Assembly (NCBI GenBank): GCA_029210545.1
Contig: JARGFV010000002.1
Location: 1 to 53,590, forward strand
Reading direction: 5' to 3'
Length of the DNA: 53,590 nt
Source of the DNA: a bacterium
GTDB taxonomy: Bacteria; BMS3Abin14
The notes under the pieces are model-generated. The model did not search any database. It saw only the letters and a list, made by a program, of their open reading frames with translations, and was not told the DNA's origin. Positions within the stretch are counted from its first letter, which is position 1. Each line of letters starts with the position of its first letter. The translations under genes were made by a program, and so were the position numbers. Of the stretch, positions 1-53,590 are shown one piece after another.

Positions 1-77
1 TAAGGAAAGGGAAAACGACGCTTTTCCCTTTCCGTGGAGCGAAAAGTCCCGGATTGGACTTTTTGCGACTCTATCAA
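1..77 (+). repeat. Multi-hairpin element, copy A (right part, cut by window edge)
   Basis: Right half of the dispersed element also found at 21571, 42886, 49703 and 53534. It holds stem S4 (GGAAAGGGAAAA / TTTTCCCTTTCC, loop CGACGC), stem S5 (AAAAGTCC / GGACTTTT) and the right terminal inverted repeat ending CTCTATCAA. It is identical or nearly so to the same part of the copies at 21653 and 42968. The left half lies outside the window. It sits about 250 bp upstream of lptC. Confidence 0.85.
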
Positions 78-21450: not shown

Positions 21451-21827
21451 GACCGGCGTCAGGTCTGGAATTTAACCACAGGGTACACCCTTCGACAGGC
21501 TCAGGACAGGCGGGGTGACACAGGGTAAGACTACAACCAGGGAAGGATTTGAAAAGAAACATGCGTAACATTGATGGACTCGCAAAAAGTCCATCAACGC
21601 ACCCCGCGCGGGGTGCCCAAATCAATGACCCGCCCCCTAAGTCATTGATTTGTAAGGAAAGGGAAAACGACGCTTTTCCCTTTCCGTGGAGCGAAAAGTC
21701 CCGGACTGGACTTTTTGCGACTCTTTCAACATTGATCTACCCTGTGAAACCCTGTGGTGTGACCTGAAAAAAGGTCACGCTGTGGTTGAATGGTTTATCA
21801 GAATTCGACTGTTCGACCGGCGTCAGG
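21451..21827. mobile_element. Composite repeat block around element copy B (nadC-birA spacer)
   Basis: The 516-bp nadC-birA gap has no gene. A 13-bp direct repeat GACCGGCGTCAGG bounds the block (21451-21463 and 21815-21827). Inside it are inverted copies of TTTAACCACAG (21471) and CTGTGGTTGAA (21780), a CCTTCGACAGGCTCAGGAC repeat (about 21489-21507) of a type widespread in environmental genomes, and the whole multi-hairpin element B. A GTGACCT / AGGTCAC hairpin lies near 21760-21778. No transposase is present. Confidence 0.5.
21571..21729 (+). repeat. Multi-hairpin element, copy B (complete)
   Basis: About 158 bp. Terminal inverted repeats: left TTGATGGACTCGCAAAAAG..., right the complement of TTGAAAGAGTCGCAAAAAG... 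Five stems in order: S1 TTGATGGACT / AGTCCATCAA; S2 GCACCCCGC / GCGGGGTGC; S3 CAAATCAATGAC / GTCATTGATTTG; S4 GGAAAGGGAAAA / TTTTCCCTTTCC; S5 AAAAGTCC / GGACTTTT. The 9-mer AACATTGAT occurs at both borders. No coding capacity. Confidence 0.9.
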
Positions 21828-21859: not shown

Positions 21860-22585
21860 ATGATCCATCGCTTCGAGAGCCTGGGATCAACCAATGATCA
21901 ACTCGTACGGATGGCGGAGGAAGGGGCACCGGAGTACACGGCGGTTCTGGCCGAAAGACAGACCCGGGGAAAGGGACGGGCCGACAGGGGCTGGTGGTCT
22001 CCCCCGGGGAACCTGTACCTTTCGGTCCTCCTCCGGCCCGGGATCAACGCCAGGCGGCTTCCGAGGGTATCCATCCTGGCGTCCCTGGCCCTTTTCCGGG
22101 CGATCGACGACAGGACCGGAACCGTTTCCCTTAAATGGCCCAATGACCTGCTCCTTGACGGCAGGAAATTGGCGGGCATCCTGCCGGCTGGCAGGATCGA
22201 GGGAGACAAGGTGGCCTGGGTCGTGACCGGGTTCGGTGTGAACGTGGTCAAACCGGAACAGGGTGTGCCCGGGGAACTGGAAGACCGGGTCGCTTTTCTC
22301 GATGAGATCGTCGAGACATCCCTTGACGACCTGGTTCACAGGATCATCGGCGAGTTCAAGGGCCTGGCCGGGTCTTTCGAGGGCCCGGCGTGGCAGAGGG
22401 CCCGGGAAGAATGGTCGCGCAGCGCCGTTTTCGGTCCTCACTATACACTGAGGGACGGTAAGAGGCGGATCGTTGGAACGCCCGTGGGCCTTGCCCATGA
22501 CGGCGGGCTGGTCATGGAAACGGAGCAGGGAACGGTTACAGTTTATGCGGGGGAACTGGAAGAGAGTGCAGAGTGTAGAGTGTAG
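21860..22585 (+). CDS. birA: Biotin--[acetyl-CoA-carboxylase] ligase
   Basis: 241 aa, monofunctional BirA without the N-terminal DNA-binding domain. Motifs: FESLGSTNDQLVR, AERQTRGKGRADRGWWSPPGNLY (biotinyl-AMP loop, here quoted in parts), LKWPNDLLLDGRKLAGIL, and GFGVNV. It attaches biotin to the carrier protein of biotin carboxylases. The stop TAG lies inside an AGAGTGT heptad array, which supplies the last residues (AECRV). Confidence 0.93.
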   Translation: MIHRFESLGSTNDQLVRMAEEGAPEYTAVLAERQTRGKGRADRGWWSPPGNLYLSVLLRPGINARRLPRVSILASLALFRAIDDRTGTVSLKWPNDLLLDGRKLAGILPAGRIEGDKVAWVVTGFGVNVVKPEQGVPGELEDRVAFLDEIVETSLDDLVHRIIGEFKGLAGSFEGPAWQRAREEWSRSAVFGPHYTLRDGKRRIVGTPVGLAHDGGLVMETEQGTVTVYAGELEESAECRV

Positions 22586-22740
22586 AGTGCAGAGCAGAGT
22601 GTAGAGCAGAGTGTAGAGTGTAGAGCAGAGTGCAGAGTGTAGAGTGTAGAGTTCAGAGTGCAGAGTTTATATGCTGAGGTTGCTGAGTTATTACCAGAGA
22701 ATTACTTCCTCTGCACCCTGCACCCTGCACTTTACACTCT
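22563..22740. repeat. Heptad array birA-coaX (AGAGTGT/AGAGTGC, then CTGCACC)
   Basis: Left arm 22563-22668: thirteen AGAGTGY-type heptads in series, interrupted by three 5-base AGAGC units. Right arm 22711-22738: CTGCACC, CTGCACC, CTGCACT, TTACACT, the reverse complement of the left words. The two arms can form a long stem with about 42 bases between them. The array overlaps the birA stop codon and ends about 20 bases before the coaX start. Confidence 0.88.
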
Positions 22741-22758: not shown

Positions 22759-23532
22759 ATGAAGGACTTGCTTTTATGTGTCGACGTCGGCAACACCCAG
22801 ACTGTCCTGGGCATCTTCAGGGGGAAGGAGATCACTTCCCGCTGGAGGATCAGGTCCGACAGGGACCGCACCGCCGACGAGTACGGCCACCTCATCCGTG
22901 ACCTGCTTCGGGGCGACGACATCGACGAGGCGGACCTTACCGGGATGTCGGTCAGTTCCGTTGTTCCGCCCGCCAGGCAGGCCCTCATGGAAATGGCGAA
23001 AACGACCTTTGGTATAGAACCCCTCATGGTGGGCCCGGGGATAAAGACAGGGATGCCGATCCTGTACGACAACCCACGGGAGGTCGGGGCGGACAGGATC
23101 GCCAACGCGGTCGCAGCCTACGAGCGTTTCGGAAGAGACCTTATCGTCATCGATTTCGGCACAGCCATCACCTTCGACGTCATCACCGCGGCCGGCCAGT
23201 ACCAGGGCGGGGTCATCTTCCCCGGAGTGCAGATCAGCCTTGACGCCCTTTTCCTGAAAGCGGCCAGGCTGCCCAGGGTCGAGCTGGAAAAGCCTGCCAG
23301 GGTGGTAGGACGGGACACAACAAGCAGCATCCAGTCCGGGATCGTCAACGGATATGCCGGACTCGTGGACAGCCTCGTGGGCAGGATCGCGGCGGAGTGC
23401 GGTACAAAGCCCCTCGTTGTGGCCACGGGCGGACTGTCCGGGATCATCGCTTCGGAAACAACCACCATCACCGAGATCCTCCCGGATCTCACACTGGAGG
23501 GTTTGAAGATCCTGTGGGAGAGGAACAGATAG
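22759..23532 (+). CDS. coaX: Type III pantothenate kinase
   Basis: 257 aa, CoaX family (ASKHA fold). Motifs: CVDVGNTQTVLGIF (phosphate 1), MPILYDNPREVGADRIANAVAAYE (quoted core DNPREVGADRIAN), VIDFGTAITFDVI (phosphate 2) and GGVIFPGVQISLDAL. It catalyses the first step of CoA synthesis and, unlike type I kinase, is not feedback-inhibited by CoA. ATG 22759 has GCAGGAG eight bases upstream; GTG 22750 is possible. Neighbouring birA is the common arrangement in several phyla. Confidence 0.96.
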   Translation: MKDLLLCVDVGNTQTVLGIFRGKEITSRWRIRSDRDRTADEYGHLIRDLLRGDDIDEADLTGMSVSSVVPPARQALMEMAKTTFGIEPLMVGPGIKTGMPILYDNPREVGADRIANAVAAYERFGRDLIVIDFGTAITFDVITAAGQYQGGVIFPGVQISLDALFLKAARLPRVELEKPARVVGRDTTSSIQSGIVNGYAGLVDSLVGRIAAECGTKPLVVATGGLSGIIASETTTITEILPDLTLEGLKILWERNR

Positions 23533-23535
23533 AAG

Positions 23536-23685
23536 GTAAAAGTGAAAAGGGGCAAGGGGAAAGGGGAAAGTGAAAAGGGAGGAGGGAGAGACCGTATGTG
23601 CGTAAAGCGTGTGGGCGTCAGATCTTTCGCACGTACGCACGTACGCTTCACTCACACACGGTTTTTCCCGGGATTTTCCCTTTCC
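23536..23685. repeat. Heptad array and fold-back after coaX
   Basis: GTAAAAG, TGAAAAG, GGGCAAG, GGGAAAG, GGGAAAG, TGAAAAG in phase (23536-23577), starting a few bases after the coaX stop. The complement reappears as TTTTCCCGGGATTTTCCC (about 23661-23680). Inside this, CGTATGTGCGTAAAGCGTGTG pairs imperfectly with GCACGTACGCTTCACTCACACACG on the other side (both read in parts). Overall a nested fold-back. Confidence 0.65.
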
Positions 23686-29848: not shown

Positions 29849-29880
29849 TAGAAAGTCGCAGACCCTGAGCTTGTCGAAGG

Positions 29881-29929
29881 GTGGAAAGGGGAAAGGGGAA
29901 AGTTAAAAGGGGAAAGTGGAAGGTGGAAA
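29881..29929. repeat. Heptad array after the MglA-like gene (GGGGAAA)
   Basis: Seven units in phase: GTGGAAA, GGGGAAA, GGGGAAA, GTTAAAA, GGGGAAA, GTGGAAG, GTGGAAA. Just upstream (about 29861-29879) is CCTGAGCTTGTCGAAGGGT, a copy of the TTCGACAGGCTCAGG-type repeat also present near 21490. A further short run CCTCCTC, CCTCCTC, CCTGCTT lies at 30092-30112. Confidence 0.8.
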
Positions 29930-29937
29930 AGAAATCA

Positions 29938-29966
29938 TGGGCGGCCTGCGGGCCGCCTTTTTTTAT
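29938..29966 (+). terminator. Rho-independent terminator of the EF-G-like/SPOR/HEAT/MglA operon
   Basis: Stem GGCGGCC / GGCCGCC with loop TGCG followed by seven T. Strong intrinsic terminator about 90 bases after the MglA-like stop, implying the four genes 24214-29848 can end in a common transcript. Confidence 0.85.
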
Positions 29967-32605: not shown

Positions 32606-33020
32606 GGCGGCGCGCCCAAATCAATGAATAGCCGCGCCTGGGAATGGCGCCCGGATCGATGATCGACCATCTACCGCGCCTGGGAATGGCGCCCGGATCG
32701 ATGATCGACCATCTACCGCGCCTGGGAATGGCGCCCGGATCAGTGACTGAAATACAGGTCACTGATCCGTGAGGGAACCGAAAACCACGCTTTTCGGTTT
32801 CCGTTGAGCCAAAGTCCTACTCGGACTTTGGCGATTTACAGTAGTCACCGTGAGGGAACCGAAAACCACGCTTTTCGGTTTCCGTTGAGCCAAAGTCCTA
32901 CCCGGACTTTGGCGATTTACAGTAGTCACCGTGAGGAAAGGGAAAACGACGCTTTTCCCTTCCCCCAGGACATTAATGAGCCAGGAAAAGTTCCGCCTGG
33001 ACTTTTTGCGACTCTATCAA
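32606..33020 (+). repeat. Multi-hairpin element, copy F (expanded variant)
   Basis: A rearranged copy filling most of the 573-bp comEC to REC-GGDEF gap. Left: degenerate S2/S3 (CGCGCCCAAATCAATGA). Then 42-bp units CCGCGCCTGGGAATGGCGCC... (2.6 copies, 32632-32741), a perfect 11-bp stem GGATCAGTGAC / GTCACTGATCC, two 81-bp units (32769-32849, 32850-32930) that differ by one loop base, and finally the standard right end (32931-33020) finishing GCGACTCTATCAA. The 81-bp units carry S4 as AACCGAAAA / TTTTCGGTT and S5 as CAAAGTCC / GGACTTTG, i.e. stems changed on both sides. Confidence 0.85.
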
Positions 33021-37674: not shown

Positions 37675-37703
37675 TTAACAGTGAAACGTGTATGGCTTAT
37701 TCC

Positions 37704-37724
37704 CAATCACGAATCACGAGTCAC
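37704..37724. repeat. Heptad run before aspS (CAATCAC, GAATCAC, GAGTCAC)
   Basis: Three in-phase units ending seven bases before TTAAGGAG, the aspS ribosome site. The left partner (GTTAACAGTGAAACGTG, 37674-37690) is degenerate. Words are of the same NAATCAC type as before valS and aroQ. Confidence 0.65.
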
Positions 37725-37745
37725 GGCTAATTAAGGAGAACCACC

Positions 37746-42324: not shown

Positions 42325-42882
42325 ATGTCTGATCCAATCGTACTTACCCCTCCGCTCACCGACGAGGACGTGGCCGGCCTGAGGGCGGGAGACCGGGTGC
42401 TCATCACAGGGTCGATTCTCACCGGCCGGGACGCGGCCCACAAGAGGCTGGTGGACCTGCTCGACAAAGGGGAAGAACTCCCTGTGGATGTCAAGGGACA
42501 GATCATCTATTTCGTTGGCCCGTCCCCGACGAGACCGGGTGAGGCCATCGGCTCTGCAGGACCGACTACGAGCTACCGCATGGACGCCTATTCACCCATC
42601 CTCATCGAGATGGGGCTGAAAGGGATGATCGGCAAGGGGACCCGCTCACGGGAGGTCAGGGACGCCATGTCGGAGCACAAGGCCGTCTACTTCGCTGCCG
42701 TTGGCGGCGCCGCGGCTCTCATCTCCAGACGCATCGAGTCCTGCGAGATCCTCGCCTACGAGGACCTCGGGCCCGAGGCGATCCGGAGGCTGGAGGTAAA
42801 GGATTTTCCGGTCATCGTCGTCAACGACACGGTGGGAAACGATCTGTATGAGCAGGGCGTCGAGGAATACAAGATAGCCTGA
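42325..42882 (+). CDS. Fumarate hydratase class I, beta subunit
   Basis: 185 aa, beta half of class I fumarase (FumA C-terminal / TtdB type). Motifs: LRAGDRVLITGSILTGRDAAHKR in parts, YFVGPSPTRPGEAIGSAGPTTS, MIGKGTRS and FAAVGGAAAL. ATG 42325 has AGGAG eight bases upstream; an earlier in-frame ATG (42271) adds non-homologous residues. Element copy C begins three bases after the stop. Confidence 0.94.
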   Translation: MSDPIVLTPPLTDEDVAGLRAGDRVLITGSILTGRDAAHKRLVDLLDKGEELPVDVKGQIIYFVGPSPTRPGEAIGSAGPTTSYRMDAYSPILIEMGLKGMIGKGTRSREVRDAMSEHKAVYFAAVGGAAALISRRIESCEILAYEDLGPEAIRRLEVKDFPVIVVNDTVGNDLYEQGVEEYKIA

Positions 42883-42885
42883 AAA

Positions 42886-43044
42886 TTGATGGACTCGCAA
42901 AAAGTCCATCAATGCGCCCCGCGCGGGGCGCCCAAATCAATGACTCACTCCGTAAGTCATTGATTTGTAAGGAAAGGGAAAACGACGCTTTTCCCTTTCC
43001 GTGGAGCGAAAAGTCCCGGATTGGACTTTTTGCGACCCTGTCAA
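42886..43044 (+). repeat. Multi-hairpin element, copy C (complete)
   Basis: 159 bp with the same five stems and terminal inverted repeats as copy B. S2 differs from B as GCGCCCCGC / GCGGGGCGC against GCACCCCGC / GCGGGGTGC, a paired change (G-C for A-T). It fills the fumarase-mqnD spacer: it begins three bases after one stop codon and ends 12 bases before the next start, so mqnD's ribosome site (AAGGTGG) starts at its edge. Confidence 0.92.
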
Positions 43045-43056
43045 AGGTGGATCTGA

Positions 43057-43893
43057 ATGGAAATATCTGAGCAATATTCCGAAACCCGCCGGCTATTGAC
43101 CCTGGGGTTTTCACCCTGCCCTAACGACACTTTTATTTTCCATGGAATCGCCAGTGGAAAGCTGACGATGCCGGGGTATGAATTTACCTCCGAGTTGCAC
43201 GATGTTGAGACCCTCAACCAGATGGCAGCAGAGGGCACTCTTGATATAACAAAGCTGTCCTTTCACGCCTGGCTCAGGGTCAAACCCAGGTACCGGATGC
43301 TGGCGAGCGGCGGCGCCCTGGGCTATGGATGCGGGCCTGTCGTCATGGCCCGCAGCCAATTGACAAGAGTCGATATCGCGCACTGCAGGGTCGTGCTCCC
43401 TGGTGATTGGACGACAGCCCACCTTCTTTTTCGCCTCTGGGCTCCCGAAGCGGAAGACCGATATTTCCTTCCCTACGATCACATCTTCAGGGCCGTGGCG
43501 TCAGGAGAGGCGGATTGTGGGGTGATCATCCATGAAAACCGGTTCACTTTTGAACAGGCCGGTTTTCACGCCATCGTCGATCTCGGGGCCTGGTGGGAAA
43601 GGGAGACCAACCTGCCGATCCCTCTGGGGTGCATTGCCGCCCGGCGTTCTCTTTCAGCCGAGACCACCTGCGCCATTGAAGATTTAATCCGCCGGAGCAT
43701 CCGGATGGCGATAGACGATCCGGAGAGCGTATTCCCCTACGTCCGTCAACACGCCCAGGAAATGGATGATCCCGTAATCGCGCGGCACATCCGGACCTTC
43801 GTAAATGACCTCAGCCTGGACCTTGGAGAGAATGGACACGCTGCGGTTGCCGCCCTCGAAAAAAAAGCCCTCATGGCTGGAGTGTTGGGATGA
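43057..43893 (+). CDS. mqnD: 1,4-dihydroxy-6-naphthoate synthase MqnD
   Basis: 278 aa. The start LTLGFSPCPNDTFIFHG is diagnostic of MqnD, followed by HDVETLNQMA, DITKLSFHAW, GGALGYGCGPVV, GEADCGVIIHENRFTF and PIPLGCIAARR. It converts cyclic dehypoxanthinyl futalosine to 1,4-dihydroxy-6-naphthoate in menaquinone synthesis. First gene of the cluster; it overlaps mqnB by four bases. Confidence 0.95.
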   Translation: MEISEQYSETRRLLTLGFSPCPNDTFIFHGIASGKLTMPGYEFTSELHDVETLNQMAAEGTLDITKLSFHAWLRVKPRYRMLASGGALGYGCGPVVMARSQLTRVDIAHCRVVLPGDWTTAHLLFRLWAPEAEDRYFLPYDHIFRAVASGEADCGVIIHENRFTFEQAGFHAIVDLGAWWERETNLPIPLGCIAARRSLSAETTCAIEDLIRRSIRMAIDDPESVFPYVRQHAQEMDDPVIARHIRTFVNDLSLDLGENGHAAVAALEKKALMAGVLG

Positions 43894-44525
43894 TCGGGCT
43901 GGTTTATGCAACCAGGGCGGAAGCAGACCCGTTCCTGAAAATGGCCAAAGCCCGCGCAGTGCAGGGCAAACCGTTTGAACTGTTCGAGATCATCGTGCAG
44001 GGGATTAGCGAAACAATGGTTGTCGTCAGCGGGATGGGAAAAGTGCCGGCGGCTCTGGCGACCCAGATGCTGATCCGTGACAACCCCCTGAAACTTGTCG
44101 TCAACGCCGGTATCTGCGGCTCTCTTACGGATCGCCCGGGCGTGAAACCCGGCGCCGTGTTTCGAGTGGACTCAGTCTCCGGGGGAGAGTCCGTCCATGG
44201 AATACCTGAGGTATCCGCGGAGTGCTGTACCGGAATGTTCGTAGAACTCGAAGGGACCACGTTGGTGACCTTTGACCGGCCGGTATTTGACAGTCAGGAG
44301 CGCCTTGCCCTGTCCAGACGGGGGGAACTGGTCGACATGGAAGGCTATTCCGTGGCTCATGTTGCCGGGATGAACGGTGTTTCCTGCGCCATAATCAAAG
44401 GTGTGACCGACCTCGCCGGGGAAGGCGACCGCCGTATGCTGCGCCTCAATCTTGCACCCGTCGCGGAAAAAGTTGCCGGCCTTGTGTGGCACGAAATCGT
44501 TCGATTGATGGAGGTTCGACGTTGA
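43890..44525 (+). CDS. mqnB: Futalosine hydrolase / MTA-SAH nucleosidase-like MqnB
   Basis: 211 aa, PNP/MTAN-type nucleosidase fold: YATRAEADPFL, VVSGMGKVPAALATQ, NAGICGSL, VDMEGYSVAHVA (ribose-binding Glu) and KGVTDLAGEGD (catalytic Asp). It removes the base from (amino)futalosine to give dehypoxanthinyl futalosine. No separate aminofutalosine deaminase is in the cluster, so direct action on aminofutalosine is plausible. Overlaps mqnD and mqnP. Confidence 0.9.
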   Translation: MIGLVYATRAEADPFLKMAKARAVQGKPFELFEIIVQGISETMVVVSGMGKVPAALATQMLIRDNPLKLVVNAGICGSLTDRPGVKPGAVFRVDSVSGGESVHGIPEVSAECCTGMFVELEGTTLVTFDRPVFDSQERLALSRRGELVDMEGYSVAHVAGMNGVSCAIIKGVTDLAGEGDRRMLRLNLAPVAEKVAGLVWHEIVRLMEVRR

Positions 44526-45352
44526 CAGGTAGCATCCTCAATTTCATCAAGATCTTTCACACGGCCTTCAGTCTGCCTACAGTATTTGCCGGAGCCTGGC
44601 TGGGAAACACCGGCCGTTTCCCGTCATTATGGATCCTGTTGCTGGTCATTGCGGCGGCAACAGGCGCCCGCACCTTCGGATTCTCCTTCAATCGTATTTT
44701 CGATCGACACATCGATGCGCAAAACCCCAGGACCGCCTCGAGGGAACTGCCCCGCGGCGCCCTGTCGGTACAGGCGGCTCTTGCTGTGACAACGGCCGGT
44801 CTGGTCATGTATCTTGCCTCCTGCGCCGCCCTGGGAGGCTGGTGCCTGGTCTTGGCACCGATCCCGTTGGTCCCTCTTCTGTTCTACTCGCTGCTCAAGC
44901 GGTTCACTCCACTTTGTCACTTCGGTATCGGGCTTTGTCTGGCCCTCGCCCCCCTGGGAGCGTTCGTGGCGACGGCCGGCCACATCCGTTTTTCCCTACC
45001 CGTCATCCTGTTCGCGGTCTATGTGTTTTTCTGGATGAGCGGAGCCGACATTCTCTACGCCATTCTTGACATTGAGAGCGATCGTCAGAACGGCATACAT
45101 AGCCTGCCCGCATTCTACGGAAGAGCAGCGGCAATGCGGATGGCGGCCTGCTGCCACATTACAGCCACAGCTCTGATCGCAGGCGTTCTATTCGTAATCG
45201 GCGGAGGCGTCGGGTCTTTCATCGCTCTGGGCCTGTCAACGCTTTTCCTGGGAGCGGCGCATGTCACGGTGATCCCGGTGGAGCTGCGGTTTTTCCCCAT
45301 CTCAACAATGGCGGGAGTGGCGGCGGCCTTTGTCCCCATCCTTGGCAGTTGA
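44522..45352 (+). CDS. mqnP: UbiA-family prenyltransferase MqnP
   Basis: 276 aa, multi-pass membrane protein. The first Asp-rich motif NRIFDRHIDAQNPRT and the second DIESDRQNGIHSLP bind Mg and polyprenyl diphosphate. It prenylates 1,4-dihydroxy-6-naphthoate. TTG 44522 overlaps the mqnB stop as TTGA with GGAGG seven bases upstream; the longer frame from 44486 would be unusual. Position between mqnB and ubiX/ubiD fixes the pathway role. Confidence 0.92.
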   Translation: MTGSILNFIKIFHTAFSLPTVFAGAWLGNTGRFPSLWILLLVIAAATGARTFGFSFNRIFDRHIDAQNPRTASRELPRGALSVQAALAVTTAGLVMYLASCAALGGWCLVLAPIPLVPLLFYSLLKRFTPLCHFGIGLCLALAPLGAFVATAGHIRFSLPVILFAVYVFFWMSGADILYAILDIESDRQNGIHSLPAFYGRAAAMRMAACCHITATALIAGVLFVIGGGVGSFIALGLSTLFLGAAHVTVIPVELRFFPISTMAGVAAAFVPILGS

Positions 45353-45398
45353 TGGACTTATAAGGTGTATTAAATCCACCAGGTAAGGAAGCAGCATC

Positions 45399-45971
45399 AT
45401 GACGGAGAATAAACATCTGGTTCTCGCAGTAACGGGCGCGTCCGGCGCTTACGCGGCCGAACAATTGATCGCCGCATCGCCCTGGCCGGTGGCCCTCGTC
45501 GTAAGCCGGTGGGGGAAAACGGTGTTCGCTGAAGAGCGTGGAGACCTTGAACGACTGTTTTCCGGGGCCGACAGTATTCACGATAACGATGATCTCAGAT
45601 CGCCCCTTGCTTCCGGGTCGGTGGCGACCCGTGGGATGGTCGTTCTCCCCTGTTCGACCCATACGCTGGGAAGTATTGCGGCTGGCCTGGGGAACACCCT
45701 GATTCCACGTGCGGCCCATTGTCACCTGAAAGAGCGGCGGACCCTGGTCCTCTGCCTGAGGGAATCGCCGCTGACCCTCATCGACCTGGATAACGCGAAC
45801 AAAGTGGCGACGGCCGGGGGGATCATCATGCCCCTTTCCCCGCCATTTTTCATGTTCAGCGGCCGGCTCCCGGAAGAGATTTCACTCACCGACATCATGG
45901 ACTCGTTTGTGGATCGGGTGCTGTCGGTATTCGGTCATGAACCAGGGCGGAATTGGGAGGATGTGCGATGA
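45399..45971 (+). CDS. ubiX: UbiX-type flavin prenyltransferase (MqnM-like)
   Basis: 190 aa. Rossmann-like flavoprotein: LAVTGASGAYAAEQLI, VVLPCSTHTLGSIAAGLGNTLIPRAAH in parts, and LCLRESPLTLIDLDNANKVATAGGII in parts. It makes prenylated FMN, the cofactor of the UbiD decarboxylase whose gene overlaps its stop as ATGA. The role is decarboxylation of 6-carboxy-demethylmenaquinone. Confidence 0.94.
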   Translation: MTENKHLVLAVTGASGAYAAEQLIAASPWPVALVVSRWGKTVFAEERGDLERLFSGADSIHDNDDLRSPLASGSVATRGMVVLPCSTHTLGSIAAGLGNTLIPRAAHCHLKERRTLVLCLRESPLTLIDLDNANKVATAGGIIMPLSPPFFMFSGRLPEEISLTDIMDSFVDRVLSVFGHEPGRNWEDVR

Positions 45972-47743
45972 TCTTTCCGGACCTGCGATCCTTCATTCAG
46001 CACCTTGAAGCACAAGGGGAACTGGTTCGCATCAGAGCCGAGGTCGATCCCGACCAAGAGATCAACATCATTCAGCATCGGGTCATGGCACATAACGGTC
46101 CTGCGCTTCTGTTCGAGAATGTCATCGGGTCCCCGTACCAGATCGTTTCCAATCTGTTCGGGACAAAAGACCGGGTCGAACGGGTGTTCGGTGGTCACCC
46201 GTCCGAAGTGGGTGAGACAGTCGTACGCCTTGCCGCAGGGATGATGCCGCCGCAAATCGAGACGATCTGGAAAGAGAGGCGCCGCATCCGGCGTCTGCTC
46301 AACGCCAGACTTCGCAACGTTTTTAAAGGTCCGGTAATGGCAACTGTTTCCGAGCCGGCCGACCTGGAATGTCTGCCGGTCTTGAAGTGCTGGCCGGAGG
46401 ACGGTGGGCATTTCTTCACGCTTCCACTGGTTCATACGGTCGACCCCGTGACCGGTTGCGGCAACACCGGCATCTACCGTCTTCAGCGATACGGCCCCGG
46501 CTCAACGGGAATGCATTGGCAGATCGAAAAGGGCGGAGGATTTCATTTTCAAAAAGCCCGGGAACTCGGCCAGCCGCTTCCGGTCAGCGTTTTTCTCGGT
46601 GGCCCGCCCGCCCTGACCATTGCCGCTGTGACCCCGCTTCCAGAGGGGATGGACGAAAGGATACTGGCCGCCTTGCTTTTGGGAAAACCGCTTGACGTCA
46701 TCAAGCGAACGAAAACAGGGCACCTGATTCCGGCACAGGCGGAGTTCGTGCTGGAGGGAACGGTAACGGACGGAGACTTGCGGCGGGAAGGTCCTTTCGG
46801 GGATCATTTCGGTCATTACTCCCACAGCGCCGATTTCCCGGTCTACCGGGTCCACCGGGTGCTGGCCCGCAAAAACGCGATTTATCCCGCCACTGTGGTG
46901 GGGAAACCGGTCCAGGAGGACTTTCACATCGGGGTCGCGCTTCAGGAAATGGCCATGCCTCTTCTGAAGCTGACCAGGCCCGCTGTAACAGCGATCTGGG
47001 CCTATCCGGAAACCGGTTTTCACCCCCTCGCCGTCATGGCAGTGAAGCAGAGATATCCGAGGGAAGCCCTGAAACATACTCTCGGAATGCTGGGTGAAGG
47101 CCAGGTCTCCCTGACCAAGATCATGATCACCGTCGACAGCGATGTGGACGTGAAGGATTTCGAGGCGGTGAGCCGAGCGCTCTGGCAGCATCTCGACACG
47201 GGAGACGGCTTGCACCTGCTTTCGCCCACGGCCCAGGACACCCTCGATTTCACCGGTCCGGCCATGAACTCCGGTTCCCGGCTTATTCTGATCGCCTGTC
47301 GGGGAAGCGGACGGCCGGTCCCAGGAGAGACACCGCCGCCGCCGCCGGAAGCCGACATGGTTGATCCCGGGATCCAGGGATTGAGGAAATGGGGTCCGGC
47401 GTTTCTCATGGTCCAACTGAAATCCGGCGGTGTGGACATCGACCGGGTCCGCCGATCGCTGGCGGCCCACCCGTCCACCAGCCAATACATGTTCCGCGTT
47501 CTTCTATCGCCGGATATCCCTCTGGACGACCCCACCATGACCCTCTGGGGTTGGTTCACGCGGTTCGATCCCCTGCTTGACATCCATCCTGCCGGACGCC
47601 GCCTGGATGGCAACCGTTTGATCCTCAACCTCCCGCTCGACATCGATGCGCGGTGGAAAGACGGCTACCCCAAACCGGTTCAATTCGATCCCGGGGTGGA
47701 GAAGAATGTGGATAAACGGTGGAAGAGCTTCGGGCTGGATTGA
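45968..47743 (+). CDS. UbiD-family decarboxylase (MqnL-like)
   Basis: 591 aa, full-length UbiD: PDLRSFIQHLEAQGELVRI, LLFENVIGSPYQIVSNLFG, GCGNTGIYRLQRYGP, EGPFGDHFGHYS and a long C-terminal domain. It needs prenylated FMN from the neighbouring UbiX. In this context it should decarboxylate the prenylated naphthoate (the MqnL step). ATG 45968 overlaps the ubiX stop. Family members act on many aromatic acids; the assignment rests on the cluster. Confidence 0.92.
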   Translation: MIFPDLRSFIQHLEAQGELVRIRAEVDPDQEINIIQHRVMAHNGPALLFENVIGSPYQIVSNLFGTKDRVERVFGGHPSEVGETVVRLAAGMMPPQIETIWKERRRIRRLLNARLRNVFKGPVMATVSEPADLECLPVLKCWPEDGGHFFTLPLVHTVDPVTGCGNTGIYRLQRYGPGSTGMHWQIEKGGGFHFQKARELGQPLPVSVFLGGPPALTIAAVTPLPEGMDERILAALLLGKPLDVIKRTKTGHLIPAQAEFVLEGTVTDGDLRREGPFGDHFGHYSHSADFPVYRVHRVLARKNAIYPATVVGKPVQEDFHIGVALQEMAMPLLKLTRPAVTAIWAYPETGFHPLAVMAVKQRYPREALKHTLGMLGEGQVSLTKIMITVDSDVDVKDFEAVSRALWQHLDTGDGLHLLSPTAQDTLDFTGPAMNSGSRLILIACRGSGRPVPGETPPPPPEADMVDPGIQGLRKWGPAFLMVQLKSGGVDIDRVRRSLAAHPSTSQYMFRVLLSPDIPLDDPTMTLWGWFTRFDPLLDIHPAGRRLDGNRLILNLPLDIDARWKDGYPKPVQFDPGVEKNVDKRWKSFGLD

Positions 47744-47745
47744 AA

Positions 47746-48891
47746 ATGAAGACGATCATGAACGCCGCGTTTTCAACATCCATTGAAAAGGGCGCCGCCG
47801 GGCAGCGGTTGACCCGTGCAGAGGCCTTTGCCCTGATCGGGGCTGTCACACCCGACACGCTTCACCTTCTGGGGGAGGCCGCTCTGGAAAACCGGACACG
47901 GCGTTGGGGCAATGACGCGACCTATATCTTCAACATCCAGATAAACCCGGCGAACATCTGCACCACGGGATGCGCCTTCTGCAATTACGCTGCCCGTCCC
48001 GAAGAAGCGCACGCCTACATCCTCAGTGAAGAGGAGATCATCGAGAAAGTGGGAAAACTGGCCCCCACCGAGGTACACATCGTGGGCGGCTTGAACAGTG
48101 TGTGGCCCTATGAGCGCAACCTCGGCCTGGTCCGTGAACTGCGCAGGAGATTTCCTGTTCTTCATATCAAGGCGTTCACCGCAGTTGAAATTGCTTTTTT
48201 TGCCCGGACTGCGGCAAAGAGCGAGAGGAGGGTCATTGAAGAACTTATTGAAGCCGGCATAGACGCCATGCCCGGCGGCGGCGCGGAAATTTTTTCCGGG
48301 CGCCTCCGTGAAAAATACTGGAAGAACAAGATCAGGCCGTCCGAATGGATCCATATCCACCAACTGGCCCATTCAATGGGAGTGTCGACCAATGCGACCA
48401 TGCTGTTCGGCTTCGGGGAAACCTGGACTGAAAGGGTGGAGCACCTGCTGACGCTCAGGGATGCCCAGGACACTTCAGATGGTTTTAGCTGTTTCATTCC
48501 CCTGGCGTTTCAGCCCGGTGAAGGTCGGTTTATCGAGCAGGGTCCGACCCCGCTCGACACCTTGTCCGTGCTTGCGGTGTCAAGGTTGGTACTGGACAAT
48601 ATCTCCCATCTTAAATCCTACTGGCCTATGATCGGACTCGAAACTGCAGCCGCCGGTCTTAGCTGGGGCGCCGATGACCTGGACGGAACCATCGGCGAGG
48701 AAAAAATAGCCCACATGGCAGGGGCAAAAACACCTTTTGGACTGGCGCGTGACCGGATGGTGGAAACAATTTCAACCGCAGGGTTCCGCCCACGGGAACG
48801 GGACGGCCGTTTCACGCCGATGAACGCCCCTTCCCCATCGACCGGTGTCCTGCCGGGTGACGTTACAGCATCGGACCAGGAGCCTGCCTGA
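47746..48891 (+). CDS. mqnE: Aminofutalosine synthase MqnE
   Basis: 381 aa, radical SAM enzyme. The cluster motif is CTTGCAFC (CxxxCxxC) after NIQINPANI, with GGLNSVWPYE, MPGGGAEIFS and TNATMLFGFGET further on. It joins 3-(1-carboxyvinyl)oxybenzoate and SAM to give aminofutalosine. ATG 47746 lies two bases after the ubiD stop. The C-terminal tail (SPSTGVLPGDVTASDQEPA) ends inside a CAGGAGCCTG repeat. Confidence 0.93.
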   Translation: MKTIMNAAFSTSIEKGAAGQRLTRAEAFALIGAVTPDTLHLLGEAALENRTRRWGNDATYIFNIQINPANICTTGCAFCNYAARPEEAHAYILSEEEIIEKVGKLAPTEVHIVGGLNSVWPYERNLGLVRELRRRFPVLHIKAFTAVEIAFFARTAAKSERRVIEELIEAGIDAMPGGGAEIFSGRLREKYWKNKIRPSEWIHIHQLAHSMGVSTNATMLFGFGETWTERVEHLLTLRDAQDTSDGFSCFIPLAFQPGEGRFIEQGPTPLDTLSVLAVSRLVLDNISHLKSYWPMIGLETAAAGLSWGADDLDGTIGEEKIAHMAGAKTPFGLARDRMVETISTAGFRPRERDGRFTPMNAPSPSTGVLPGDVTASDQEPA

Positions 48892-48912
48892 TAACCCCAC
48901 AAAGACTCCTGG
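48877..48912. repeat. Short CAGGAGCCTG...GACTCCTGG element, copy 3
   Basis: CAGGAGCCTGCC ... AAAGACTCCTGG, a 36-bp relative of the element at 49907. The mqnE stop codon is inside it. Confidence 0.45.
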
Positions 48913-48940
48913 CAATGGTCAAGTGACGCGAGGTTCAACG

Positions 48941-49789
48941 ATGACTCATCCTGTCGCAATTATCCCCTACACGAACATGGCGCCTCTACAGGTTTTCGGT
49001 CCTCCGCAGGGGTGCCGGTTCGTGCCGATGGTTCCCCGGGAGAGCATAACCGCCCTTCTGGAGAAACGTGTGATCGCCGCGGCTGTACCGGTGGGTGGGC
49101 TGCCGGCTCTCGACTCCGCCGTCGACCTGCTGGGGCCTTTCGGTATCGCCGCACGGGAACGGTCCATGAGCGTCCTGCTGTTTTCGAAGCGGCCGTTTGC
49201 CGATATCCCACCCGACGCCCGATTCCGATTGACCTCTGAATCCGCCTCCAGCGTCCGGCTCCTCTACCTTCTCCACGGATATCGAAACGGGTTTAAAAAA
49301 AAACCCACTTCGGCCGGTAACGGACGTAGTGCGGACGGAGAGCTTCTTATCGGCGATGCCGCCCTGCTCATGAGGAAATCGCATCGGGAAAACAGGTCAC
49401 ACGAATACCCTTTTGTGACGGACCTGGCGGAGGAATGGTTTGCCATGCACAGCCTGCCTTTCGTCTTCGCCAGATGGGTGATACGCAAAGATGCTCCTGG
49501 CACCGCCCGCAGGGCACTCGAAAACTGGCTTGATGAGTTCAGAGTCAATGAGTTCGACCTGATCCATCGTGCGGCGCCGCCGGCTGCCAGAAGCCTCGGC
49601 TTGCCCCTGCAGGAGGTGCTGGACTATTTCCGAACTGTCCGCCGGGTCCTCGACCAGGATGATCTTGCCGGGCAGGAACGTTTTTTAACCGATCTTGAGC
49701 TATTGAAAGAGTCGCAAAAAGCCCAGGCGGGACTTTTTGCTCAACGGAAAGCGAAAAGTGTCATTTTCGCTTTCCTCACAGATCATTGA
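48941..49789 (+). CDS. mqnA: Chorismate dehydratase MqnA
   Basis: 282 aa, MqnA/periplasmic-binding-like fold: YTNMAPLQVFG, VAAVPVGGLPAL-type AAAVPVGGLPALDS, SMSVLLFSKRP, LTSESASSVRLLYLL, LLIGDAALL, and LAEEWFAMHSLPFVFARWVI in parts. It dehydrates chorismate to 3-(1-carboxyvinyl)oxybenzoate, the first committed step. ATG 48941 fits the family start. The last ~27 codons (from SQKAQAGLF) are encoded by the multi-hairpin element copy D, which also supplies the stop, so the native C-terminus was replaced or extended. Confidence 0.9.
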   Translation: MTHPVAIIPYTNMAPLQVFGPPQGCRFVPMVPRESITALLEKRVIAAAVPVGGLPALDSAVDLLGPFGIAARERSMSVLLFSKRPFADIPPDARFRLTSESASSVRLLYLLHGYRNGFKKKPTSAGNGRSADGELLIGDAALLMRKSHRENRSHEYPFVTDLAEEWFAMHSLPFVFARWVIRKDAPGTARRALENWLDEFRVNEFDLIHRAAPPAARSLGLPLQEVLDYFRTVRRVLDQDDLAGQERFLTDLELLKESQKAQAGLFAQRKAKSVIFAFLTDH

Positions 49790-49855
49790 CTTCTATTGCC
49801 GGTCATTGATCTGGGCGCCCCACCTGGGGCGTGTTGATGACTTTTTGCGAGGTCA
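49703..49855 (-). repeat. Multi-hairpin element, copy D (divergent, inverted, overlaps mqnA)
   Basis: Read on the - strand it has the left end (GACCTCGCAAAAAGTCATC), an S2 with GCCCC / GGGGCG, an S3-like GATCAATGAC stem, S4 as GGAAAGCGAAAA / TTTTCGCTTTCC and an S5 with GCAAAAAGCCC. Relative to copies B and C, S4 carries paired changes (GGG/CCC to GCG/CGC). Its right end (TTGAAAGAGTCGCAAAAAG, + strand) starts inside mqnA and the element separates mqnA from mqnC. Confidence 0.85.
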
Positions 49856-49906
49856 CCAACTATTATATGTGGGAGTAACAGCCCCTCGGAAGCCGCATCC
49901 CTCCCT

Positions 49907-49941
49907 GGGTGTCTGTCGGAGAACCTGACACAGACTCCTGG
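49907..49941 (+). repeat. TGTCGGAGAAC...CTCCTGG short element, copy 4
   Basis: GTGTCTGTCGGAGAACCTG followed by ACACAGACTCCTGG. It shares TGTCGGAGAAC and CTCCTGG with the copies at 14550 (- strand) and 53428. It lies 20 bases before the mqnC start, over its leader. Confidence 0.6.
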
Positions 49942-49960
49942 TGAAAAGGGAACAGTCATT

Positions 49961-51070
49961 GTGGAGGACGATCCATTGAAAAAGTCGCGCACGGGGGAAA
50001 GAATAGCTGCCCGACGCATGGGCGAACGGTTCGAGCGCGGTGATGCGCTGGAGCTGCTCAGGGAAATGCCCATGGGGCGCCTGATGGCTATGGCTCACGG
50101 TGCGCGTCTCGATCGCTACCCGGAGCCCGCTGTGACCTTCGTAATAGATACCAATCCGAACTACACGAACATCTGCGTCACCCGGTGCCTTTTCTGCGCC
50201 TTCTGCCGCCCGGGAAACGACGCGGATGCCTACACCCTTTCCCCGAAGCAGCTGGGCGAAAGGGTTAAGGCCGCTCACGACATCGGGGCGACAACCGTGC
50301 TGCTGCAGGGGGGGCACAACCCGGCTATCGGGCTGGGGGAATGGACAGCATACATCCGGGAGATCCGGAAAGCCTGTCCGGACATCCACATTCATCCTTT
50401 CAGCCCTGCCGAATACGTCTTCATGGCAGCTAAGGAGAAGATCAGCTACGAAGAGGCACTGCGGTCCGTATACCTCGAAGGAGTGGACACCATCCCTGGC
50501 GGAGGCGCCGAAATCCTGACCGAACGGGTACGACAGGCAATCGCGCCGGACAAGGCAACGACGAACGAATGGCTGGAGCTTAGTGAGACCGCACACCGGA
50601 TAGGGTTTAGAACTACCGCGACCATGATGTTCGGTCACATTGAAACAGATATGGACATTGTAGACCATCTTCTGTCGCTTCGGGCGGTGCAGGATCGTAC
50701 TGGAGGGTTTACCAGCTTTATTCCCTGGTCGTTCAAACCGGGCTGTTCACACCTCAGCCGGAAGGTTCCGTCCCCGGTACACCCGGCAAAGTATGTGCGA
50801 ATAATTGCTCTGGCACGCCTGGTGCTCGACAACTTCCCTCACATTCAATCTTCCTGGTTCAGCGAGAGCGTTCAGGCAGGGCAGCTGGGGCTGCTTGCCG
50901 GGGCAGACGATTTCGGAGGGGTGCTGATAGAAGAAAATGTGCTCAAGACAACCGGATACCGGAATACTTCCACGGTCGAAGAGGTTAAAAACATCATCCG
51001 AAGAGCGGGGTTCACACCGGCACAGAGAAACGGCTATTATCAGACCATTTGCGTCCAGAAGCCTGTGTGA
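49961..51070 (+). CDS. mqnC: Cyclic dehypoxanthinyl futalosine synthase MqnC
   Basis: 369 aa, radical SAM enzyme of the MqnC/CofH-like group. Cluster motif CVTRCLFCAFC (CxxxCxxC) after TNPNYTNI, then LLQGGHNPAIGL, IHPFSPAEY, GVDTIPGGGAEIL, TTATMMFGHIET and SFKPGCS. It cyclises dehypoxanthinyl futalosine, the substrate of MqnD. GTG start at 49961 with AAGGGAACA upstream. It is separated from mqnA by element copy D and a short repeat, so it may have its own promoter. Confidence 0.94.
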   Translation: MEDDPLKKSRTGERIAARRMGERFERGDALELLREMPMGRLMAMAHGARLDRYPEPAVTFVIDTNPNYTNICVTRCLFCAFCRPGNDADAYTLSPKQLGERVKAAHDIGATTVLLQGGHNPAIGLGEWTAYIREIRKACPDIHIHPFSPAEYVFMAAKEKISYEEALRSVYLEGVDTIPGGGAEILTERVRQAIAPDKATTNEWLELSETAHRIGFRTTATMMFGHIETDMDIVDHLLSLRAVQDRTGGFTSFIPWSFKPGCSHLSRKVPSPVHPAKYVRIIALARLVLDNFPHIQSSWFSESVQAGQLGLLAGADDFGGVLIEENVLKTTGYRNTSTVEEVKNIIRRAGFTPAQRNGYYQTICVQKPV

Positions 51071-51310: not shown

Positions 51311-52927
51311 ATGGAAACCGACGTTCTTATCATTGGATCGGGGGTGGCCGGTTTCATGACCGCCCTCAAGGTGGCAAGATTCGCAGACGTGACTCTTGTC
51401 ACCAAGCGATCGGCCGATGACACCTCCACCTCCAAGGCCCAGGGCGGTATCGCCACCGTCATGGACGACGCGGACCGGTTCGAATACCACATCCGGGACA
51501 CCCTCACCGCGGGAGCCGACCTCTGCCACGAGGACGTGGTGGAAACGATCATCAAGAACGGCCCGAGGGCCCTGAGGGAACTCATCGACCTGGGCGCTCA
51601 TTTCGACCTGTCTGCCAAAGGTACACTTGACCTTGGACGGGAGGGCGGACACAGCCATCGGCGCATCGTCCACGCGAAGGACATGACCGGGCGCGAGATC
51701 CAGCGGGTCATCCATGCCGCAGCCGACCGCAACGAACGGATCCGGGTCCTCGAAAACCACATGGCTCTGAACCTCGTGACCCTGGGCACCCTGGCCAACC
51801 GCCTGCCCGACGACCCGGCCACCGACCGGTGCCTGGGATGCTACATCCACAACGCGGTCACCGGTGAGATCTTTCCTCTCCTTGCAAGAACTGTTGTCCT
51901 GGCAACCGGCGGCGCCGGGAAAGCATACCTTTATACAAGCAACCCCGACGTCGTCTCCGGAGCGGGGATTTCCCTGGCCTATCGCATCGGGGCCGACATC
52001 GCCAACATGGAGTTCGTCCAGTTCCATCCCACCTGCCTTTATCACCCGGCGGCCAAATCGTTCCTCATCAGCGAAGCGGTCCGGGGCGAGGGGGCCGTGC
52101 TCAGGACCCTCGACGGAAACGCCTTCATGGGAGCCTATCACGAGATGAAGGACCTCGCACCAAGGGACATCGTGGCGAGGGCCATCGACAGCGAACTGAA
52201 AAAACGGGGCGACGACCACGCCCTGCTGGACATCACCCACAAGCCGGCCCGTGAGATCATCGACCGGTTTCCCAACATCTACCAGCAATGCCTCGAATAC
52301 GGATTCGACATGACGAAAGAACCCCTCCCCGTGGTCCCGGCGGCCCATTACCTTTGCGGAGGGGTCCGGACCGACCTGGACGGGAAAACCGCGGTCCCAG
52401 GGCTTTACGCCTGCGGGGAAACGGCGTGCACGGGACTTCACGGCGCCAACCGCCTGGCCAGCAACTCCCTTCTCGAAGCCCTCGTCATGGCCGACAGGAT
52501 CGCCTGCTCCATGGAGGCCGAATGGGATTCCCTCGCTCACCCCACGGCCTTGGACATTCCTGCCTGGGACCCGGGTGATGCCGTGGACTCCGACGAGAAC
52601 GTTGTCATCTCCCACAACTGGGACGAGATCAGGCGCACCATGTGGAACTACGTGGGGATCGTTCGTACCGACCGGCGCCTTGAAAGGGCCCTTCACCGCA
52701 TCGAGCTGTTGAAGCGGGAGGTGGAGGAGTACTACTGGAACTTCCGCATCACCAGGGATCTCATCGAACTGAGGAACCTTGTCTACGTCGCGCTCCTCAC
52801 GGTGCGCTGCGCCATGGCCCGCAAGGAGAGCCGCGGCCTCCACTACACCCTGGACTACCCGGAAAGGGACGAGGCGTACCGGAAGGACACGGTGATCAAC
52901 CGAAGGCAGTATATTAAAAGGCCGTGA
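51311..52927 (+). CDS. nadB: L-aspartate oxidase
   Basis: 538 aa flavoprotein of the succinate dehydrogenase/fumarate reductase family. FAD-binding LIIGSGVAGFMTAL, TSKAQGGIA, GGHSHRRIVHAKDMTG, EFVQFHPTCLYH, EAVRGEGAVLRT (catalytic Arg region), AAHYLCGGVRTD, and GETACTGLHGANRLASNSLLEA in parts. It oxidises aspartate to iminoaspartate for NAD synthesis, using fumarate or oxygen. TAAGGAAAC precedes ATG 51311. nadC is at 20432; nadA is not in the window. A CGTGACT heptad array starts within its stop codon. Confidence 0.96.
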   Translation: METDVLIIGSGVAGFMTALKVARFADVTLVTKRSADDTSTSKAQGGIATVMDDADRFEYHIRDTLTAGADLCHEDVVETIIKNGPRALRELIDLGAHFDLSAKGTLDLGREGGHSHRRIVHAKDMTGREIQRVIHAAADRNERIRVLENHMALNLVTLGTLANRLPDDPATDRCLGCYIHNAVTGEIFPLLARTVVLATGGAGKAYLYTSNPDVVSGAGISLAYRIGADIANMEFVQFHPTCLYHPAAKSFLISEAVRGEGAVLRTLDGNAFMGAYHEMKDLAPRDIVARAIDSELKKRGDDHALLDITHKPAREIIDRFPNIYQQCLEYGFDMTKEPLPVVPAAHYLCGGVRTDLDGKTAVPGLYACGETACTGLHGANRLASNSLLEALVMADRIACSMEAEWDSLAHPTALDIPAWDPGDAVDSDENVVISHNWDEIRRTMWNYVGIVRTDRRLERALHRIELLKREVEEYYWNFRITRDLIELRNLVYVALLTVRCAMARKESRGLHYTLDYPERDEAYRKDTVINRRQYIKRP

Positions 52928-53101
52928 CTCGTGACTCGTGATTAGTACTTAGGGAACCCCCCGGCTTTGCCGGGGGTACATGGCTGACTCGCAACCCGTA
53001 ATCCGATAAGGTCTTTGTGAATTGCGATTAAATGGTTTTTGCAAACAGAACCAGGAATTTCCGCGATTTTTTCTAATTACGAATCACAAATTACGAATCA
53101 C
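52923..53101. repeat. Heptad array nadB-aroQ (CGTGACT / GAATCAC)
   Basis: Left arm CGTGACT, CGTGACT, CGTGATT (52923-52943), overlapping the nadB TGA. Right arm TAATTAC, GAATCAC, AAATTAC, GAATCAC (53074-53101). Between them is a CCCCCGGC-TTT-GCCGGGGG hairpin (52958-52976) without a T-run, possibly a weak terminator. The left words are identical to those after lptB, 50 kb away. Confidence 0.8.
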
Positions 53102-53477: not shown

Positions 53478-53533
53478 GCCCGCATTATTCATGATGCAAA
53501 TGAGATGTCAGCCAACTGTGTGGCAATTAAAGA

Positions 53534-53590
53534 TGATGGACTCGCAAAAAGTCCATCAACGCGCCCCGCGCGGGGCGCCCAAATCAATGA
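53534..53590 (+). repeat. Multi-hairpin element, copy E (left part, cut by window edge)
   Basis: Left end with S1 (TGATGGACT / AGTCCATCA), S2 (GCGCCCCGC / GCGGGGCGC) and the start of S3 (CAAATCAATGA). It matches copies B and C to the last base of the window. Confidence 0.88.

Follow-up and report, generated by a model that had tools for sequence, protein, structure and literature searches.

The multi-hairpin repeat at positions 42886-43044 is very probably one copy of a high-copy family of non-autonomous MITEs inserted at AANNTT-like sites, and selection on its folded state (RNA or single-stranded DNA) is probably a better reading of its matched stem changes than conversion between the stem arms. 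The element is short and non-coding, has terminal inverted repeats (TIRs) and target duplications (TSDs), occurs as dispersed copies with an empty site, and shares its ends with autonomous elements in its own genome (contig C1) and at two further loci (L145, L146). A preliminary description of this DNA had set the element apart from a non-autonomous transposon alone. That contrast falls away, because a non-autonomous transposon is what the TIRs, the 6-8 bp TSDs, the IS1182-like end-sharer and the empty site indicate.

The window, which is the whole 53,590-nt stretch analysed, comprises all of contig C2 from a source genome of 2.72 Mb in 241 contigs. It holds six copies (Table 1) at the places first noted, with one end corrected from 49855 to 49859 and one start from 53534 to 53533. 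Both ends of the contig fall within copies, meaning that the assembly breaks inside the repeat. The copy at 42886 contains all five of the stems described earlier, in the same order, has at least 40 genomic copies at 92-100% identity, and takes up the space separating a gene for a fumarase C-terminal domain (stop at 42882) from an MqnA-like menaquinone gene that starts at 43057. The protein of the latter gene is matched in none of the phylum's 11 other genomes, and an empty-site test there is uninformative since the gene is present in this genome alone within the phylum. Futalosine-type menaquinone genes (MqnA-like, PNP, MqnA/D-like and MqnC-like) extend over 43057-51070, with MITE copies interspersed. 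The view that all copies are intergenic or at gene ends holds for most of them; by a rough gene call, 3 of 47 copies lie inside called genes, and the ORF at 48845-49789 ends within a copy, which supplies its last ~29 codons and stop. The window also contains simple-sequence repeats of the AGAGTGTAGAGTGCAG, AAAGGGG and CGTGACTCGTGA types (22565-22680, 23530-23579, 29876-29939, 37696-37734 and 52914-52952), and some MITE flanks lie within GTGAACNGTGAA sequence that resembles them.

Table 1. Copies of the element in the window, and the parts of the copy at 42886-43044.
Feature	Positions	Strand	Remarks
Right half of copy	1..77	+	Truncated by contig start
Complete copy	21571..21729	+	Between nadC-like and birA-like genes; exact TSD AACATT on both sides, at 21567-21572 and 21728-21733
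Expanded copy	32606..33020	+	Tandem 42-bp (32632, 32674, 32716) and 81-bp (32767, 32848) hairpin modules
Complete copy	42886..43044	+	159 bp including TT/AA of target; element proper 42888-43042
S1 hairpin (left TIR)	42886..42912	+	TTGATGGACT-cgcaaaa-AGTCCATCAA
S2 hairpin	42914..42931	+	GCGCCCC/GGGGCGC; one pair with two-sided GC<->AU change in 12/85 copies
S3 hairpin	42933..42967	+	CAAATCAATGACT/AGTCATTGATTTG; two-sided changes at 7/13 pairs
S4 hairpin	42971..43000	+	GGAAAGGGAAAA/TTTTCCCTTTCC; one pair occurs as GC, UG, CG and UA
S5 hairpin	43006..43033	+	GCGAAAAGTCC/GGACTTTTTGC; 3' arm within right TIR
Right TIR	43023..43044	-	TTGACAGGGTCGCAAAAAGTCC; from end-pattern search
Diverged complete copy	49703..49859	-	Flanks AGCTATT/AACTATT
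Left part of copy	53533..53590	+	Truncated by contig end

Comparison of flanks places the limits of the element proper (~155 bp, GATRGASTCGCAAAAAGTCC … GCGASTCTATC) at GATRGASTCGC and GCGASTCTATC, and assigns the TT/AA outside these to the target sequence. The TIRs are 20 bp long, and the element has no coding capacity. A 22-bp end pattern, TTGATRGASTCGCAAAAAGTCC, has eight matches in the window with up to three mismatches, compared to none in 100 shuffles. The 20/22 identity reported earlier between the left end TTGATGGACTCGCAAAAAGTCC and the A and F right ends (TTGATAGAGTCGCAAAAAGTCC) is correct, while the two ends of copy 42886 agree at 18/22 positions. The TSDs measure 6-8 bp and have the consensus AANNTT. 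Exact 6-bp duplications flank 20 of 44 two-ended elements, mostly from the source genome (shuffled-flank mean 1.2, maximum 5), and exact 6-8 bp duplications flank 34 of 40 copies in the related genome G003 (shuffled mean 2.8, maximum 8). Departures from the consensus are repeated on both flanks (AACAGT, AAAGGT, AAGTAT). No exact duplication was found in the flanks of copy 42886. Copies frequently adjoin the ends of other copies, and at one locus two of them (L028:1501-1659 and L028:2032-2134) stand immediately 3' of tRNA-3'-end-like sequences.

The preliminary description had proposed searching the genome and its relatives with a covariance model and comparing empty sites. The search returned at least 148 copies in the source genome. 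Of the 12 genomes of the phylum examined (one family, eight genera), 11 contain the five-hairpin form; in the 10 besides the source genome, counts range from 18 to at least 151, and the model found no five-hairpin copies in the single-contig genome G001. The core 12-mer of the ends, TCGCAAAAAGTC, occurs 376 times in the whole source genome (reversed control 0), and only at background counts in 133 genomes of other families. We found no relatives of the element among phages, plasmids or viral contigs. As for empty sites, the gap between nadC and birA contains the element in this genome only; none was detected in those relatives that show this gene pair, and their gaps are mostly short. Between genomes, the identity of the best copies reaches 97.5% (G003), while the nadC protein is only ~61% identical there and about 51-65% across genomes. 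This difference suggests recent horizontal spread of the element, with mis-binned contigs another possible source of the high identity.

The exact ends also occur with other interiors in MAGs, mostly named as Desulfobacterota groups. At several loci (L066, L078, L082, L085, L089, L092) the same ends enclose an unrelated interior, which folds into a single long hairpin. Another repeat, sharing the end GATGGACTCGCAAAAAGTCCTCATCAAATAAC, is found at contig ends (L073, L074, L076, L080, L081, L095, L099) in the MAGs SpSt-1226 and ZodW_Metabat.303. It is possibly an autonomous IS, and the SpSt-1226 contigs stop inside it.

Because the two have their ends in common, we infer that an IS1182-like transposase mobilises the MITE in trans. 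The candidate in the source genome is P0001 (contig C1), a DDE_Tnp_1 gene of 520 aa with DUF772 and DDE_Tnp_1 domains, lying between the ends TTGACGGCATCGCAAAAAGTAT and TTGATGGACCCGCAATTAGTC. Among NCBIfam models, IS1182 matches it best (E 1.6e-33), at 116 bits against a family cut-off of 270 bits, and the one intact copy of its element in this genome is without a matching TSD. Relatives of the transposase are bracketed by similar ends in a Desulfobulbaceae genome (L145), with a MITE on either side, and in Desulfocapsa (L146). SZUA-204 has a broken relative with the upstream end TTGATGGCTTCGCAAAAAGTATC, and in Microvirga a relative at 36% identity is flanked by the 18-bp ends GACGGGGCGGTAAAAAGT. 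A full-length relative sharing the ends, together with only a few copies, had been named beforehand as grounds against a selected fold; such a relative exists, but the copies are numerous. Two other candidates were rejected. TIR pairs 1.6-2 kb apart (G004, G006 and contig C3 of the source genome) enclose ordinary genes rather than forming autonomous elements. An IS1634 transposase (contig C154) is half a gene cut beside a MITE copy, and has more likely been damaged by the element than mobilised it; at L108:1291-2064, the IS1634-family transposase lacks its first ~224 profile positions and is cut at a contig end beside a MITE copy.

Folding is often ascribed to bacterial MITEs, but selection on the fold has seldom been tested. 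In the present case, one family-level lineage supplies hundreds of copies, and with them enough paired and private changes to do so; end-sharing relatives with other or no interiors serve as natural controls. In 20 sequences aligned without structure (A1), we counted 11 two-sided pairs, compared to 6.0±1.3 when shuffled and at most 4 when slid. In 85 distinct copies from the phylum (A3), aligned to the model and hence leaning toward it, there were 19 two-sided pairs (8.5±1.5 shuffled) and 107 cells (23 in the control, at most 24 when slid). The covariation first seen among the window's copies thus exceeds both controls in both alignments, and two-sided changes are seen in every helix.

Private changes point the same way. 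In copies ranked by BLAST, 98 stem sites carry 16 such changes and 58 unpaired sites carry 25 (p 0.003), ~2.6 times fewer per stem site; the comparison assumes that both kinds of site mutate at equal rates. The contrast is larger in alignments A4/A5 (p 3e-6), but these are biased because their copies were ranked by the structure model, and we therefore rely on the BLAST-ranked set. Selection on the fold is favoured because covariation exceeds the controls and private stem changes are fewer even in these BLAST-ranked copies.

The preliminary description had offered selection on a folded form or arm-to-arm conversion. Our data support the former and disfavour the latter, as only 4 of 35 private stem changes, counted in the model-ranked copies, are in a Watson-Crick state. 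It is accordingly unlikely that the stems are maintained without selection by a mutational process, such as template switching or intramolecular conversion between quasi-palindrome arms. Such a process would account for two-sided changes in all helices, and also for the similar numbers of private G-U (9) and A-C (11) changes, as expected if it acts on DNA and is strand-neutral. However, unbiased conversion predicts gain and removal of the paired state in about equal measure, which 4/35 does not resemble, and wobble or mismatch pairs in S5 stay fixed without correction in many copies (G-U in 42, C-A in 17).

A functional structured RNA, either a regulator or a processing signal, carried by the element is similarly improbable. 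The covariation does span genera, conserved linkers (TGTRAGG and CCGTGGAG) adjoin S4, and on the S1-to-S5 strand G-U mildly exceeds A-C at the genome level (58 vs 32, counting non-independent events). Against this, the private changes show no G-U excess, Rfam covariance models had no match in the window at gathering thresholds, and the element is absent from relatives at the single orthologous site examined (nadC-birA). Its orientation relative to co-directional neighbour genes is also neutral (12 same and 11 opposite by a rough gene call), and so offers no hint that it acts in one particular sense of the mRNA.

The same linkers beside S4, together with the overlap of S1 and S5 with the ends, would fit interior hairpins required for transposition, through binding of transposase or a host factor, in which case selection would act on mobile elements only. 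We doubt this explanation too. Copies of 46 bp consisting of TIRs only exist, one of them with an exact 6-bp TSD, and hence mobility probably does not depend on the hairpins. Other Desulfobacterota have unrelated interiors between the same ends, and in individual copies the unpaired end positions change more than the stems.

Returning to selection on the folded state, an insertion may be tolerated only if any RNA transcribed across it, from whichever side, forms compact hairpins; compact folding would avoid ending or destabilising the host message. We consider the chances evenly balanced that this is why the stems are kept. Some copies are expanded by tandem 81-bp S4+S5 and 42-bp S2/S3-like units, each with its own matched stems; the example in the window has three of the 42-bp repeats (S2-like/S3-like) as well as 81-bp S4+S5 repeats. 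Perhaps, though here we are more tentative, the interior is a selected module of several hairpins under purifying selection at each insertion. Such a structured RNA or single-stranded DNA domain would keep insertions into transcribed regions from doing harm, or make them beneficial, and its modules could be multiplied.

The literature we searched contained no description of this MITE family. The earlier statement that no described family has this layout stands for the detail, and fails for the kind, as modular hairpin-rich repeats of MITE type are already known, such as BOX (PMC3049150). A family of REP/BIME-like palindromes that depends on a Y1 tyrosine transposase for its movement would also be short, palindromic, high-copy and mostly intergenic, but is very hard to reconcile with true TIRs, 6-8 bp TSDs and a candidate partner of DDE type that shares these ends. 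Among transposase families, the one closest to the candidate mobiliser is IS1182; its member IS1272 replaces target stem-loops and leaves no TSD (PMC5678879). Here, AANNTT is instead duplicated, and the exact TSDs of most G003 copies do not fit stem-loop replacement of this type. Correia, ERIC, Nezha, QMITE and others are non-autonomous elements of 100-250 bp with TIRs and TSDs, stable folded transcripts and up to hundreds of copies (PMC10969869). Going by their descriptions, our element is set apart by its separate covarying hairpins in fixed order and by its module expansion. The Chunjie element of Geobacter uraniireducens (178-235 bp), as cited in the same source, is also a MITE, and the likeness is one of description only. 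BOX of Streptococcus pneumoniae is a high-copy, intergenic modular hairpin repeat with TIRs and a variable number of boxB modules, thought to be mobilised by an IS with matching ends (PMC3049150). Its resemblance to our element was judged on layout: both have modular hairpins, TIRs, an internal module that can be multiplied and a high copy number. Unlike BOX, the element described here belongs to an unrelated host, has five hairpins with measured covariation and clear 6-8 bp TSDs, and is accompanied by a candidate IS1182-like DDE partner and by end-sharing relatives with other interiors.
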